From the NCBI GenBank assembly GCA_938029215.1, contig CALHFG010000114.1, positions 1 through 64,000 of the forward strand: DNA of 64,000 bases, given 5' to 3'. Positions within the stretch are counted from its first letter, which is position 1. Each line of letters starts with the position of its first letter. The notes beneath the pieces are model-generated. The model did no database searches. It was not told the origin of the DNA and saw only the letters and a program-made list of their open reading frames with translations. Below, piece by piece: positions 8,878-35,891 of this stretch. The position numbers were made by a program, and so were the translations under genes. This DNA comes from an uncultured Acidimicrobiales bacterium. Lineage in GTDB: Bacteria; Actinomycetota; Acidimicrobiia; Acidimicrobiales; SZUA-35.

Positions 8878-9779
8878 GGCTCGGTCCCCGCTCCCACCAG
8901 GTCGGCGAAGAGCTCGCTCAGTTCCGGAGGCTCCATCGTTAGTGACTCCACCTGACCAGCGGCCATTGCCTGGCTAATGCATGGTTCTGGATCGGTGGCG
9001 GCGTCTAGTTCGATCGTGGCGCTGCGCTGGTCCGATTCGGTGATCTGGCCAACGACAGGGGTGAAGCCGGCCACGGGTTGACTCCAGCGAACCCGCAAGC
9101 GGCGGAGCGGCGAACGGGAGCGCAACTCATCGATTGTTCCTTCCGCTACCACCGCGCCCTTGGCGACGACGATCGCATCTCTGGTGAGCGTGCTCACCAG
9201 ATCCAGTTGGTGGGAAGAGAACAGGACGCAAGCTCCCGCTTCGGTCCGCTCGGTGACGATCTCTTGCATCTTGGTGGCTGCGACCGGGTCAAGGCCGGCG
9301 AACGGCTCGTCAAGGATTAACAGATCCGGGTCGTGAATCAGAGCTACCGCCAGCTGCACCCGCTGCTGGTTCCCCCCAGACAGCTCCTGCAGTAGTGCAT
9401 CGCGCCGGTCGCTCAGGTCTAGCCGTTCGAGCCAATAGTTGGCTCGCTGGTCGGCGGTGCTGGCATCCAGACCGGCCAGTCGACCGAAGTAAACGATTTG
9501 TTCGAGTGCCTTCATACGGGCATACAAGCCACGCTCCTGGGGCATGTAGCCCACCCGTTTTCGGGCGGCGTCGTCCAACGGGGACCCGTCCCAGGAAATC
9601 GTACCGGCGTCGGGTCGCACCATTCCCATCACCGACCGCATGGCGGTGGTCTTTCCTGCTCCGTTGGGGCCAAGAAATCCAACCAGTGACCCACGTGGCA
9701 CATGGAGCGACAGCCCGTCTAGCGCGACAACCTCGCCGAAACGCTTGCGGAGGAGCTCCAGACGTAGACCATCGGTCAT
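8874..9779 (-). CDS. ABC transporter ATP-binding protein (NatA-like)
   Basis: 301 residues from the ATG at 9779. Walker A GPNGAGKT is at 37-44, the signature reads LSGGNQQRV, and Walker B is LLILDEPFAGLD; a C-terminal extension of about 80 residues after the nucleotide-binding domain is typical of the NatA/DrrA subgroup. I chose this ATG over an in-frame start at 9848 because the extra residues are low complexity and because TAGTGT at 9792-9787 ends 7 bases upstream, the leaderless pattern common here. It is translationally coupled to the permease. Confidence 0.92.
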   Translation of the reverse strand: MTDGLRLELLRKRFGEVVALDGLSLHVPRGSLVGFLGPNGAGKTTAMRSVMGMVRPDAGTISWDGSPLDDAARKRVGYMPQERGLYARMKALEQIVYFGRLAGLDASTADQRANYWLERLDLSDRRDALLQELSGGNQQRVQLAVALIHDPDLLILDEPFAGLDPVAATKMQEIVTERTEAGACVLFSSHQLDLVSTLTRDAIVVAKGAVVAEGTIDELRSRSPLRRLRVRWSQPVAGFTPVVGQITESDQRSATIELDAATDPEPCISQAMAAGQVESLTMEPPELSELFADLVGAGTEP

Positions 9780-9847
9780 GGACTTCACACTACTGAATGG
9801 CCGACCGGACCGTCGCCTCGGCGATGCACCGAGTATCCTTGGACGCA

Positions 9848-12314: not shown

Positions 12315-13757
12315 CTACAGCTCGACGGTCAGGGTGGCTAATGCCCCCTGGCCGTCGTGATGGTTTTCCAGCAGGAACGTACCGCCGAGATCGGCTGTGG
12401 CGAGTGTCTTGATGATGGTGAGCCCAAGCCCAGGATCGTCGTCGATATTGAAGCCCGGCGATAGACCGATTCCGTTATCGAGGACTCGAATCCGAAGGGT
12501 GCCGCGCTTGGTAGACATCGTGACCGTTACTCTGCGGTCGTTCTGGCCGGCCCGCACCGGAAATCCGTGCTCGACCGCGTTCTGAATCAGCTCGGTCAGG
12601 ATTACTGCCAGGCTGGAAGCTACCTCGGCCGGGACAATTGGGCCCTCGCCGTCGATGGTGATCGTGACTGGTCGGTCAGGATCCATGAGCGCCCCCTGAA
12701 CCATCTGTACGACCGGGGAAACCACATCACCCAGCGCAACGTCGTCGCCTCCGTCGCGACTGAGCACCTCATGAACTAGGGCGATCGATCGAATTCGCCG
12801 AGAAGCCTCATCGAGGGCGGTCTTGGCAGCTGGTTCGGTGACGCGTCGGCCTTGAAGTCGTAAAAGCGACGAAACCGTCTGCAGGTTGTTCTTCACGCGG
12901 TGATGAATCTCGCGGATGGTTGCATCCATCGACACCAAGAGCAGCTCCTGTCGACGGATATCGGAGATGTCTCGCATCAACACCAAGGCTCCAGCAGCGC
13001 GGCCCTGGTCCAACAGTGGGAGGAGCCGCATCTGAATCGCGACCCTGTCGCCGCGTTCGAGGTCGTGGATGAGCGGGGCCCTGAGTCCGAATGCGGTTCG
13101 AAGGACGTCACGGGGGAGTCCGATGTCGGTGACGTTCCGCCCAACCGCATTGGCGTGGAACCCCGTTCGGTGTAACGCCGACACCGCGTTTGGTGAGGTG
13201 TACTCGACTTTGCCTTTCGCGTCGAGGACGATCACACCGTCGCCGACTCGGGGCGAACCCTCCGACGTTGGATCGTCAAACGGGTAGGGAAACGAGCCGT
13301 CGGCAACCATGGAGAAAAGTCGCTCGACAACCCCGAGGTAGGCGGCTTCGAGCGTGCCGGGACCGCGACCGCTAGCCCACACCCGTTCATTCACTAACGC
13401 CGCAACGATCAGCCCGTTGTGCCGGATCGGCACCGCACGAACCTGCACCGGTTCGTCAACGTCCTCCCGATCAATCGTGCCCTGGACGGCGTTTCCTGAG
13501 GCGAGCGCCTCAGAGACGTGCGGTCGGTTGCGAGAGAACAGTCCGATGTGGTCGGTGCGATACAACGTTTGGGTCGTGGTGGGTCGGACCTGCCCGACCA
13601 CCAGCAGACGCGAGTCTTTTGCCGGTACGAACAGCAGCAAATCACCGAATGACAGGTCGCACAGCGGACCCCAGCCCGCCACAAGGCGGCGAAGGTGCTG
13701 CTGGGCGGCATCGCTGAGCGAGGTGTGATGTCGGAGAAGATCGTTGAGCGAAGCGAT
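12315..13757 (-). CDS. pdtaS: PdtaS-type sensor histidine kinase (GAF-PAS-HisKA_2-HATPase), probable ATC start
   Basis: 480 residues from ATC 13757. An N-terminal GAF-like domain, a PAS-like domain (about 165-260 from this start), a HisKA_2 box with EIHHRVKNNLQ (His at about 285) and a HATPase domain with ELIQNAVEHGF and GLGLTIIKTL. PdtaS acts in the cytoplasm, phosphorylating the RNA-binding antiterminator PdtaR; no pdtaR is in view. The first canonical start, GTG 13682, would cut into the GAF domain. The 25 upstream codons (ASLNDLLRHHT...) align position by position with the start of mycobacterial PdtaS, its Met falling on ATC 13757. TAGCCT at 13769-13764 lies exactly 6 bases before that ATC. 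whiB1 lies nearby, as in mycobacteria. Confidence 0.9.
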   Translation of the reverse strand: MASLNDLLRHHTSLSDAAQQHLRRLVAGWGPLCDLSFGDLLLFVPAKDSRLLVVGQVRPTTTQTLYRTDHIGLFSRNRPHVSEALASGNAVQGTIDREDVDEPVQVRAVPIRHNGLIVAALVNERVWASGRGPGTLEAAYLGVVERLFSMVADGSFPYPFDDPTSEGSPRVGDGVIVLDAKGKVEYTSPNAVSALHRTGFHANAVGRNVTDIGLPRDVLRTAFGLRAPLIHDLERGDRVAIQMRLLPLLDQGRAAGALVLMRDISDIRRQELLLVSMDATIREIHHRVKNNLQTVSSLLRLQGRRVTEPAAKTALDEASRRIRSIALVHEVLSRDGGDDVALGDVVSPVVQMVQGALMDPDRPVTITIDGEGPIVPAEVASSLAVILTELIQNAVEHGFPVRAGQNDRRVTVTMSTKRGTLRIRVLDNGIGLSPGFNIDDDPGLGLTIIKTLATADLGGTFLLENHHDGQGALATLTVEL

Positions 13758-13774
13758 GCAAATAGGCTAACGGC
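13758..13774. promoter_or_regulatory. Shared bidirectional -10 for pdtaS and the cyclase-fold gene
   Basis: Only 17 bases separate the two initiator codons. On the plus strand TAGGCT (13763-13768) is followed by 6 bases and ATG 13775. On the minus strand TAGCCT (13769-13764) is followed by 6 bases and ATC 13757. The two -10 boxes overlap in five base pairs, so one AT-rich element can melt for either gene but probably not both at once, and both mRNAs would be leaderless. Confidence 0.7.
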
Positions 13775-14434
13775 ATGCCTCCCACCGACTATCGGTTGCA
13801 TGACGTTTCGATGTGGATGGACGATTTCGTCTTTCCGGGAGATGAGCCGGTCCGTGTCGACGGGCCATTCGACGTCGTGGGGACCGACAACCCCGAGTGG
13901 GTCTATCAGTTCAGTTCTCCTACTCAGGCGGGAACGCACATTCAAGGCCCGCACTACTTTCTCGAACATGGGTCGACGATCGACTCGTTCCCGCTCAGCC
14001 GTTTCCAAGGATGGGCCCACGTGGTCGACATCGAAGCCAACGGGACCGATACCACGGTTGGTCAGCTGGGAGAGCAGCTCGATGGGGTCGACCTGACAGA
14101 TCGGTTCGTGATTCTTCGCAGTCATCACATGGACGCACTTGTCCAGGGTCAGCCGCTGGACCCATCGACCCGACCAGGATTGTCGCTCGAGGCTGCTCAG
14201 TGGCTCATCGATCGAAGCGTCACGATGGTGGCCATCGATTCGGTTGGGGTCGAGTCCCGTCGTTCCAAGAATTTCGACGTCAACGTGCTTCTGTGCGAAA
14301 ACAGCGTTTTGATTTTGGAGGGTCTCGTGGACCTTGGTCCGATCGGTGATCGGGTGTGGTTGGAAGCGCTTCCCCTGAAACTACGGGGCGTGGAGGGCAC
14401 ACCCTGCCGGGCGATCGTCAAAATTCCCAGCTGA
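13775..14434 (+). CDS. Cyclase-fold (kynurenine formamidase-like) protein with altered metal site
   Basis: 219 residues matching the cyclase family PF04199, which includes bacterial kynurenine formamidase and isatin hydrolase. The family motif HxGTHxDxPxHF reads QAGTHIQGPHYF here: of the four usual metal ligands only the central His remains, the others being Gln, Gln and Tyr. The rest of the fold seems complete (DLTDRFVILR, AIDSVGVESRR). It may be a catalytically different or inactive relative. The ATG follows TAGGCT by 6 bases (leaderless) and shares its promoter with pdtaS on the other strand. Confidence 0.82.
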   Translation: MPPTDYRLHDVSMWMDDFVFPGDEPVRVDGPFDVVGTDNPEWVYQFSSPTQAGTHIQGPHYFLEHGSTIDSFPLSRFQGWAHVVDIEANGTDTTVGQLGEQLDGVDLTDRFVILRSHHMDALVQGQPLDPSTRPGLSLEAAQWLIDRSVTMVAIDSVGVESRRSKNFDVNVLLCENSVLILEGLVDLGPIGDRVWLEALPLKLRGVEGTPCRAIVKIPS

Positions 14435-14472: not shown

Positions 14473-14529
14473 TTGAAGATGGTGTGAACGGACCAGTACC
14501 CTGCGGGACACGAAGTGCCACGTGACACA
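14473..14529 (+). promoter_or_regulatory. whiB1 promoter with a CRP-type site
   Basis: TTGAAG (14473-14478) and TACCCT (14497-14502) form a sigma-70-like promoter with an 18-base spacer, giving transcription from about 14509 and a leader of about 50 bases. Bases 14515-14529 read GTGCCACGTGACACA, which fits the mycobacterial CRP pattern GTGnnAnnnnnCACA at every fixed base and is nearly palindromic. From just downstream of the start point it would repress. Mycobacterial whiB1 is a known cAMP-CRP target; the transfer to this organism is inference. Confidence 0.5.
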
Positions 14530-14559
14530 ACATCCAGCCCGCAGATGGAGACGGTTCAA

Positions 14560-14949
14560 ATGAAGGCAGAGCAGCCAGGCGAGTCAAACGAGGAAACGAT
14601 CGACCTCACGTTTCGAATGCCGCTGATGTTTGAACGGATCGCCAAGAAGGTGGGTCAGCGCCCTCGCAGTGATCGCTCTGGCCAGGATCTTGACGTCAGC
14701 TGGCGTCGGACCGCAGCTTGTCTCGACACCGATCCCGGACTGTTTTTCCCTGTCGGTGTCACCGGCTCGGCGCTTGTTCAGATTCAGGACGCTCGAGCGG
14801 TGTGCATGGGATGTTCCTGTCAGGAGGCATGTCTCGAATTTGCTCTGCGCAGCAACCAAGACACCGGCATCTGGGGCGGTGCGTCTGAGGAGGAGCGACG
14901 CCACCTCCGTCGCACCTACATCAACAAGCGATCACGCGTCGTCAGCTAG
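14560..14949 (+). CDS. whiB1: WhiB1-type Fe-S transcriptional regulator
   Basis: 129 residues from ATG 14560, chosen because GGAG lies 9 bases upstream; in-frame starts at 14515 (GTG, inside the CRP-like site) and 14545 have no Shine-Dalgarno. The four cluster ligands are C54, C82, C85 and C91 in the spacing C-x27-C-x2-C-x5-C, with an extra C87; the turn GIWGG is at 103-107, followed by a basic tail (RRHLRRTYINKR). The core from residue 48 (WRRTAACLDTDPGLFFPVG) resembles WhiB1 closely, with an N-terminal extension of about 45 residues that WhiB1 lacks. WhiB1 is an NO-sensitive [4Fe-4S] partner of the primary sigma factor. Proximity to pdtaS matches the mycobacterial Rv3219-Rv3220c pairing. 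Confidence 0.88.
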   Translation: MKAEQPGESNEETIDLTFRMPLMFERIAKKVGQRPRSDRSGQDLDVSWRRTAACLDTDPGLFFPVGVTGSALVQIQDARAVCMGCSCQEACLEFALRSNQDTGIWGGASEEERRHLRRTYINKRSRVVS

Positions 14950-35017: not shown

Positions 35018-35833
35018 TCAGATTCGCGCGGCTGCCGTGGCCCCCGCTGCCGCAAGTTCCGGGGTAGCGAAATACAGATCGCTCCCCACCTCGAGGGCGG
35101 TCTCCTCGTCTGGAACGGCAAGGCCGCCGACGAGCACGGCCGCGATCTTCGGGTCGTCCCGGATGCCGGCCACCAGTTCGGCTGCGGCTGGTAACGCTTC
35201 GGGAAGCGTCACCGCGATCGCAACCGAAACCGAGCCATCTATCGACCCTGCGGCCTCCAGCAGGACCGCAGGGTCGATGACCTGGGCGAGATCGACAACG
35301 TCGGCTCCCTCGCCTCGAACCAAGTTGGCGAAAAGGGCTGTCGCCAGTGTGTGGGGATCGCCCGCAGGGCACGCAACCAAAACCGTGCCGGACCGGCGGC
35401 CACGGCGTTTGGGTATACCGAGTCGGGAAATGAGGCGCTGGGCCACAACGGTTGCCATGTGTTCTTGCGCGATCGTGGCGAGTCCGTCGGCCCATCGTTG
35501 GCCGGTCTCGCGCAGCGCTGGTGTAATGAGGGCCTGTTGGGCCATGAGTGGCTCGCGATGAACGTTGTACGCCACCAGTAGGTCCCAGGCTCCGTCCTCG
35601 TCACCCCGTTCCATACATTCACGCATGGCTCGGGCGTTCGCAGGCACCGAGATCGGAGCCGCGTCGACCGTCCGAAAGCTGTCCAGGTCCGCCTGAGAGA
35701 TCATCCAACGGCGGCCGATCTGGCGAGCCGGCAGTTCGCCGGTACGGATGTACCGGTAGACCGTCATGTAGTGAACACCGAGGGCCTCGGCTGCTTCGTT
35801 GAGTGAAAGCTCTTGAGGCGTCGCCAAGGTCAT
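35018..35833 (-). CDS. HTH_17-cobalamin-binding regulator with CarH-type Wx9EH motif (copy 1)
   Basis: 271 residues. An excisionase/BldC-type helix-turn-helix (about 9-53, LNEAAEALGVHYMTVYRYIR) is followed by a helical-bundle cap (about 65-140) and a Rossmann B12-binding domain (about 148-260). The cap has W114 and E124-H125, the Wx9EH motif that packs over the adenosyl group in CarH photoreceptors; the B12 domain has D159-P-H161, the lower-ligand motif DxHxxG with the Gly changed to Ala. CarH/LitR use a MerR-type HTH instead. A light- or adenosylcobalamin-sensing repressor is likely but inferred. ATG 35833 follows TAGTCT (35845-35840) by 6 bases. Confidence 0.85.
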   Translation of the reverse strand: MTLATPQELSLNEAAEALGVHYMTVYRYIRTGELPARQIGRRWMISQADLDSFRTVDAAPISVPANARAMRECMERGDEDGAWDLLVAYNVHREPLMAQQALITPALRETGQRWADGLATIAQEHMATVVAQRLISRLGIPKRRGRRSGTVLVACPAGDPHTLATALFANLVRGEGADVVDLAQVIDPAVLLEAAGSIDGSVSVAIAVTLPEALPAAAELVAGIRDDPKIAAVLVGGLAVPDEETALEVGSDLYFATPELAAAGATAAARI

Positions 35834-35891
35834 CGGTCCAGACTAGAGAATGGGCGAGTTTGACGATGAACCAGGGGGATACGCTCTTGTC

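Follow-up and report, generated by a model that had tools for sequence, protein, structure and literature searches.

How a gap of only 17 bp between two divergent genes can provide for the transcription of both is the question raised by a locus in the 64,000-nt stretch of DNA analysed here (the window), which belongs to a fragmented draft genome (3.94 Mb in 144 contigs) of an uncultured Acidimicrobiales bacterium. The gap, at positions 13758-13774 (GCAAATAGGCTAACGGC), separates pdtaS, on the minus strand (12315..13757), from a putative cyclase gene (PF04199 by Pfam match) on the plus strand (13775..14434), which begins with an ATG at 13775. The exact centre of the gap is occupied by a palindromic 7-mer of the form TANNNTA (TAGGCTA, 13763-13769), and this carries both a plus-strand TAGGCT (13763-13768), 6 nt ahead of the cyclase ATG, and a minus-strand TAGCCT (13764-13769), 6 nt ahead of the first pdtaS codon, the two hexamers overlapping by 5 bp (13764-13768). 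The spacing, the overlap and the distances to both initiators had been described in an initial annotation of this DNA, and on re-reading of the sequence its coordinates were exact. From this arrangement we consider it probable that the site is a housekeeping-type core promoter with bidirectional activity, in which a single TANNNTA would serve as the -10 element in both directions and the transcripts would start 18 bp apart, each at its first coding base.

The minus-strand gene encodes a histidine kinase with GAF_PdtaS, PAS_4, HisKA_2 and HATPase_c domains, and the presence of GAF_PdtaS together with HisKA_2 and HATPase identifies it as a PdtaS kinase. Its frame is intact over 480 codons, and its start position at 13757 is, by homology, fixed, given that position 1 of the GAF_PdtaS profile corresponds to residue 4 of the protein counted from this codon, and that codons 2-25 are conserved, with 10 synonymous and 3 non-synonymous differences from the genus relative G001. 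The codon at this position (13755-13757) is ATC, one base away from ATG, and not ATG, GTG or TTG. A single regulator with an ANTAR domain is also encoded in the genome; it is a candidate PdtaR partner of the kinase, and its presence makes loss of the pathway improbable. On the other side, the cyclase gene is followed by a whiB-family gene (14545..14949, plus strand) of uncertain start, a further GTG being located upstream at 14515.

The geometry of the spacer was compared with that of the bacterial bidirectional promoters, whose commonest layout has starts 18 bp apart, reciprocally paired -7T and -11A bases, and a T at -18 on each strand (PMC10268837, PMC12825309; the 18-bp class is that of Warman et al. 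2021, as cited in these two papers). Here 18 bp separate the predicted start on the minus strand (13757) from that on the plus strand (13775) and, with the pairing criterion of PMC10268837, the plus-strand -11A (13764) and -7T (13768) pair with the -7T and -11A of the minus strand. Thymine is found at -18 in both directions, at 13757 on the plus strand and at 13775 on the minus strand. By position arithmetic and the geometry of PMC10268837, position 13775 would be at the same time the cyclase transcription start (the first base of its ATG) and, on the opposite strand, the -18T of the pdtaS promoter, and position 13757 would be the pdtaS start and the -18T of the cyclase promoter, in such a way that the -18T of either promoter pairs with the base that opens the opposite gene. 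The ATC of pdtaS still supplies this A and would leave the promoter intact whatever its effect on translation. No -35 elements were found at spacings of 15-19 bp (best match 2/6 on the plus strand and 3/6 on the minus strand), which is consistent with the lack of a conserved -35 motif in M. tuberculosis (PMC3898074).

The site thus shares with the 18-bp class, as it is cited in those papers, a near-symmetric common -10, the distance between starts, the -7T/-11A pairing, the -18T on both strands and the expected presence of one polymerase at a time. It differs from that class in that neither predicted transcript would have a 5' leader and coding sequence follows in both directions, the base that opens each gene thus falling at the -18T of the opposite predicted promoter. 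A second relevant comparison is the M. tuberculosis pair Rv1130 (prpD) and Rv1129c, also divergent neighbours with transcription starts at their start codons, a TANNNT -10 and no conserved -35 (PMC3898074), although the starts were measured there and are predicted here, and a shared overlapping -10 is not described for that pair in the passages of that paper considered here. A limited literature search for the combination of leaderless genes and a bidirectional promoter in bacteria returned nothing, the nearest case being these divergent leaderless neighbours of M. tuberculosis. Each part of the arrangement has a precedent, in bidirectional promoters generally and in prpD/Rv1129c, and the pdtaS/cyclase site would be a compact form of an already known promoter type.

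In the proposed mechanism, the palindromic TANNNTA would act as a -10 element in either orientation, a use already proposed in the initial annotation and well supported by the geometry and by the comparative data. Opposite-strand transcripts would start 18 bp apart, each at the first base of its own coding sequence; we infer that both transcripts are made, with initiation at 13775 and at 13757 and one polymerase on the site at a time. The cyclase mRNA is expected to undergo leaderless translation, and the pdtaS transcript would start with AUC. From promoter anatomy, the upstream contacts of each polymerase would fall within the opposite coding sequence, so the 17 bp correspond to the intergenic gap and not, as had been claimed, to the whole control region. 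It had also been claimed that the two genes are mutually exclusive per initiation event. This agrees with the published rule that opposing polymerases cannot occupy a bidirectional promoter simultaneously, but that rule is generic, and the two genes as regulatory alternatives find no support: the basal bidirectional promoters of E. coli are weak, and abolishing one direction brings no substantial gain in the other unless an activator, for example, increases transcription (PMC12825309). With weak basal activity, exclusion would probably be a by-product of compaction, and a regulatory either/or switch is not supported by the present evidence.

The meaning of a -10 box at this distance was analysed by counting TANNNT offsets ahead of 1590 genes whose starts were picked by hexamer statistics alone. 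TANNNT was found 6 nt ahead of the start in 188 of the 1590 genes and 7 nt ahead in 69, over a background of 2-10 genes per offset at offsets 0-5 and 10-19, and thus a -10 box 6 nt from the start is a meaningful mark of leaderless genes in this genome. At coding onsets 6 nt past TANNNT, only ATG (146 observed vs 11 expected) and GTG (126 vs 12) were enriched in this genome, whereas ATC showed no enrichment (8 vs 11) and was rejected as a general leaderless start. The cyclase gene, with TAGGCT, 6 nt and ATG, conforms to the leaderless pattern; pdtaS has its TAGCCT within the expected 6-7 nt, but ATC at its predicted 5' end in place of ATG or GTG. The claim that both products are leaderless therefore finds support for the cyclase but not for pdtaS, because of this codon, which went unmentioned in the initial annotation and which served as the negative control in M. 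smegmatis, where leaderless translation starts on ATG and GTG only (PMC4633059).

TANNNTA itself is scarce, with 3 copies in the window and 81 in 1.78 Mb of the genome (around 1 per 22 kb), and the chance of finding one centred exactly in a given spacer is around 5e-5 from the observed density, or 1.4e-3 from base composition. Among the 81 sites, 25 lie at most 12 nt from a called start, and automatic calls make a single one two-sided, that of the DUF2277 pair on contig 144; a second would be the pdtaS/cyclase site, were pdtaS not called automatically at the internal GTG 13682. Relative to the expectation from base composition, TANNNT is depleted about five-fold and TANNNTA about thirty-fold in the window and the 1.78 Mb, a pattern that would fit avoidance of stray -10 boxes or of TA steps.

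Conservation was then considered for each half of the site. In 62 of 110 pdtaS loci, among them those of nearly all Streptomyces and of many Acidimicrobiales, a TANNNT is located 6-7 nt ahead of the start codon, and from these sequences the pdtaS -10 is judged to be old. Among the loci of Streptomyces and relatives, nearly every Streptomyces pdtaS has TACGCT or TAGGCT 6-7 nt ahead of a GTG, which suggests a deeply conserved leaderless pdtaS promoter. The kinase genes of Streptomyces and other Acidimicrobiales share the box with our locus and differ from it in their NTG starts, nearly all ATG or GTG, the ATC described here being the only one among the 110 loci. For the cyclase half, a single close ortholog with a pdtaS neighbour was found, in G001, with TATCCT 8 nt ahead of an in-frame GTG and a gap of 56 bp to pdtaS; none turned up in the three remaining members of the genus. 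The 17-bp spacer, whose conservation in relatives had been put forward as a check, is thus not conserved and, because the only ortholog has a 56-bp gap, the compact layout appears particular to this species among those compared. On these sequence comparisons, outside support is strong for the pdtaS half and weak for the cyclase half.

An alternative is that only one promoter direction is real, with TAGCCT driving pdtaS, the A that completes TAGGCT and the spacing to the ATG being coincidental, and the cyclase gene transcribed from elsewhere. The rarity of the cyclase as a neighbour, with its close ortholog in G001 only, speaks for it, as does the base that follows TANNNT, which is G or C and not A in most pdtaS relatives, and so does the raw count of symmetric 17-bp sites, which does not exceed that of a conditional control (see below). 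Against it, the TANNNT of the cyclase gene is exactly 6 nt ahead of its ATG, at the leaderless peak of this genome and at least 20-fold above background, and the spacer holds no other plus-strand TANNNT, so we regard transcription in a single direction as unlikely. The bidirectional promoter is likely, backed as it is by the sequence geometry, the conservation of the pdtaS -10, the abundance of leaderless starts and the recurrence of the design at another locus; the points against it are the unconserved 17-bp layout at this locus, the ATC at the pdtaS start and, again, the absence of raw excess. As the sequence stands, the reading of two leaderless proteins fails the start-codon test on the kinase side.

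As to the ATC itself, the likeliest explanations are that an original ATG was misassembled or varies between strains, or that a mutation has recently weakened the start, and both are compatible with the bidirectional promoter. We give nearly even chances to an assembly or strain-consensus error for ATG, pdtaS being then an ordinary leaderless gene: a single base separates the codon from ATG precisely where the start is conserved, the sequence comes from a fragmented draft of 144 contigs, and none of the 109 other pdtaS loci has ATC. It is also possible, and we hold this more tentatively, that the codon is genuine and keeps pdtaS expression low or absent, the promoter firing and the leaderless AUC message being inefficiently initiated. 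By the mycobacterial rule that only ATG and GTG are functional (PMC4633059), an AUC-led pdtaS transcript would be poorly or not translated; ATC is likewise unenriched at leaderless positions in this genome, and no Shine-Dalgarno is found upstream of GTG 13682. The intact frame, the constraint on codons 2-25 (10 synonymous vs 3 non-synonymous) and the presence of the ANTAR regulator, however, imply that any loss of pdtaS must be recent. Leaderless initiation on AUC as a device in itself, with each gene's opening base shared as the -18T of the other promoter and the kinase set at a low level relative to its divergent neighbour, we find very doubtful. Even less credible is translation from the GTG at 13680-13682, which would give pdtaS a 75-nt leader and make it not leaderless. 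The TAG of the -10 itself forms the upstream in-frame stop, and from there on this GTG is the first canonical in-frame codon and the likely choice of start-codon-based gene calling. Its use would drop 25 residues of the conserved N-terminus, among them the first residues of the GAF_PdtaS domain, and the missing Shine-Dalgarno also speaks against it.

The recurrence of such compact spacers was studied by searching the pattern CAY-N5-TANNNTA-N5-RTG in 61 genomes of the order, and 44 sites were found. Raw enrichment was apparent relative to off-register controls and vanished relative to a conditional control in which one leaderless side is kept intact and the other is shifted (44 vs 62 sites), so the argument for a class rests on gene content and conservation. 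Long ORFs (at least 80 aa) on both sides were present at 12 of the 44 sites with the 17-bp layout, in comparison with 1/30 and 0/15 at the off-register N3 and N9 spacings and 3 of 31 checked sites in the one-side-shifted control; as N7/N7 spacing also gave two-sided long ORFs (5 of 18 checked sites), 17 bp is not a unique solution. Four of the 12 two-sided sites correspond to the same pair, a DUF2277 gene and a lipoprotein-like gene, in which the 17 bp and the TANNNTA are kept in four species of the genus (G000, G001, G002 and G004) with a DUF2277 identity of 68-80% (spacer at L070 1501-1523, that is G000:C144:9995-10017; also L066, L067 and L069). Further 17-bp sites with Pfam-recognised genes on both sides are those of Aldedh/ECH, TetR/hydrolase, UvrD/aminotransferase, SRPBCC/UvrD, biotin carboxylase/biotin ligase and esterase/acyl-CoA dehydrogenase.

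Since leaderless translation needs no 5' leaders, the gap between two genes can shrink to 17 bp and still hold two promoters. The A of each start codon being the -18T of the opposite promoter, each start codon would be constrained by that promoter, a prediction applicable to any leaderless species with mapped starts. Such pairs can be hidden by start-codon-based annotation, which here calls pdtaS 75 nt too short.

Automatic calls place two further divergent pairs 16-17 bp apart in the window (9779-9797 and 35833-35850), and in each of them a -10 can be recognised on a single side. Among the divergent spacers of this genome, small in number, clusters are seen at 16-17 and 23-25 bp, and no spacer measures 18-22 bp. 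A second layout, ANNNTANNNT, has two -10 boxes with only TA in common, a 22-bp spacer and a predicted distance of 23 bp between transcription starts, and distances of 18 and 23 bp are likewise preferred by the bidirectional promoters of E. coli (PMC12825309). This 22-bp layout is commoner than the 17-bp one in the 61 genomes of the order, with 176 sites vs 102 in its conditional control (totals summed from tables), and long ORFs ran both ways at 13 of the 30 sites checked.
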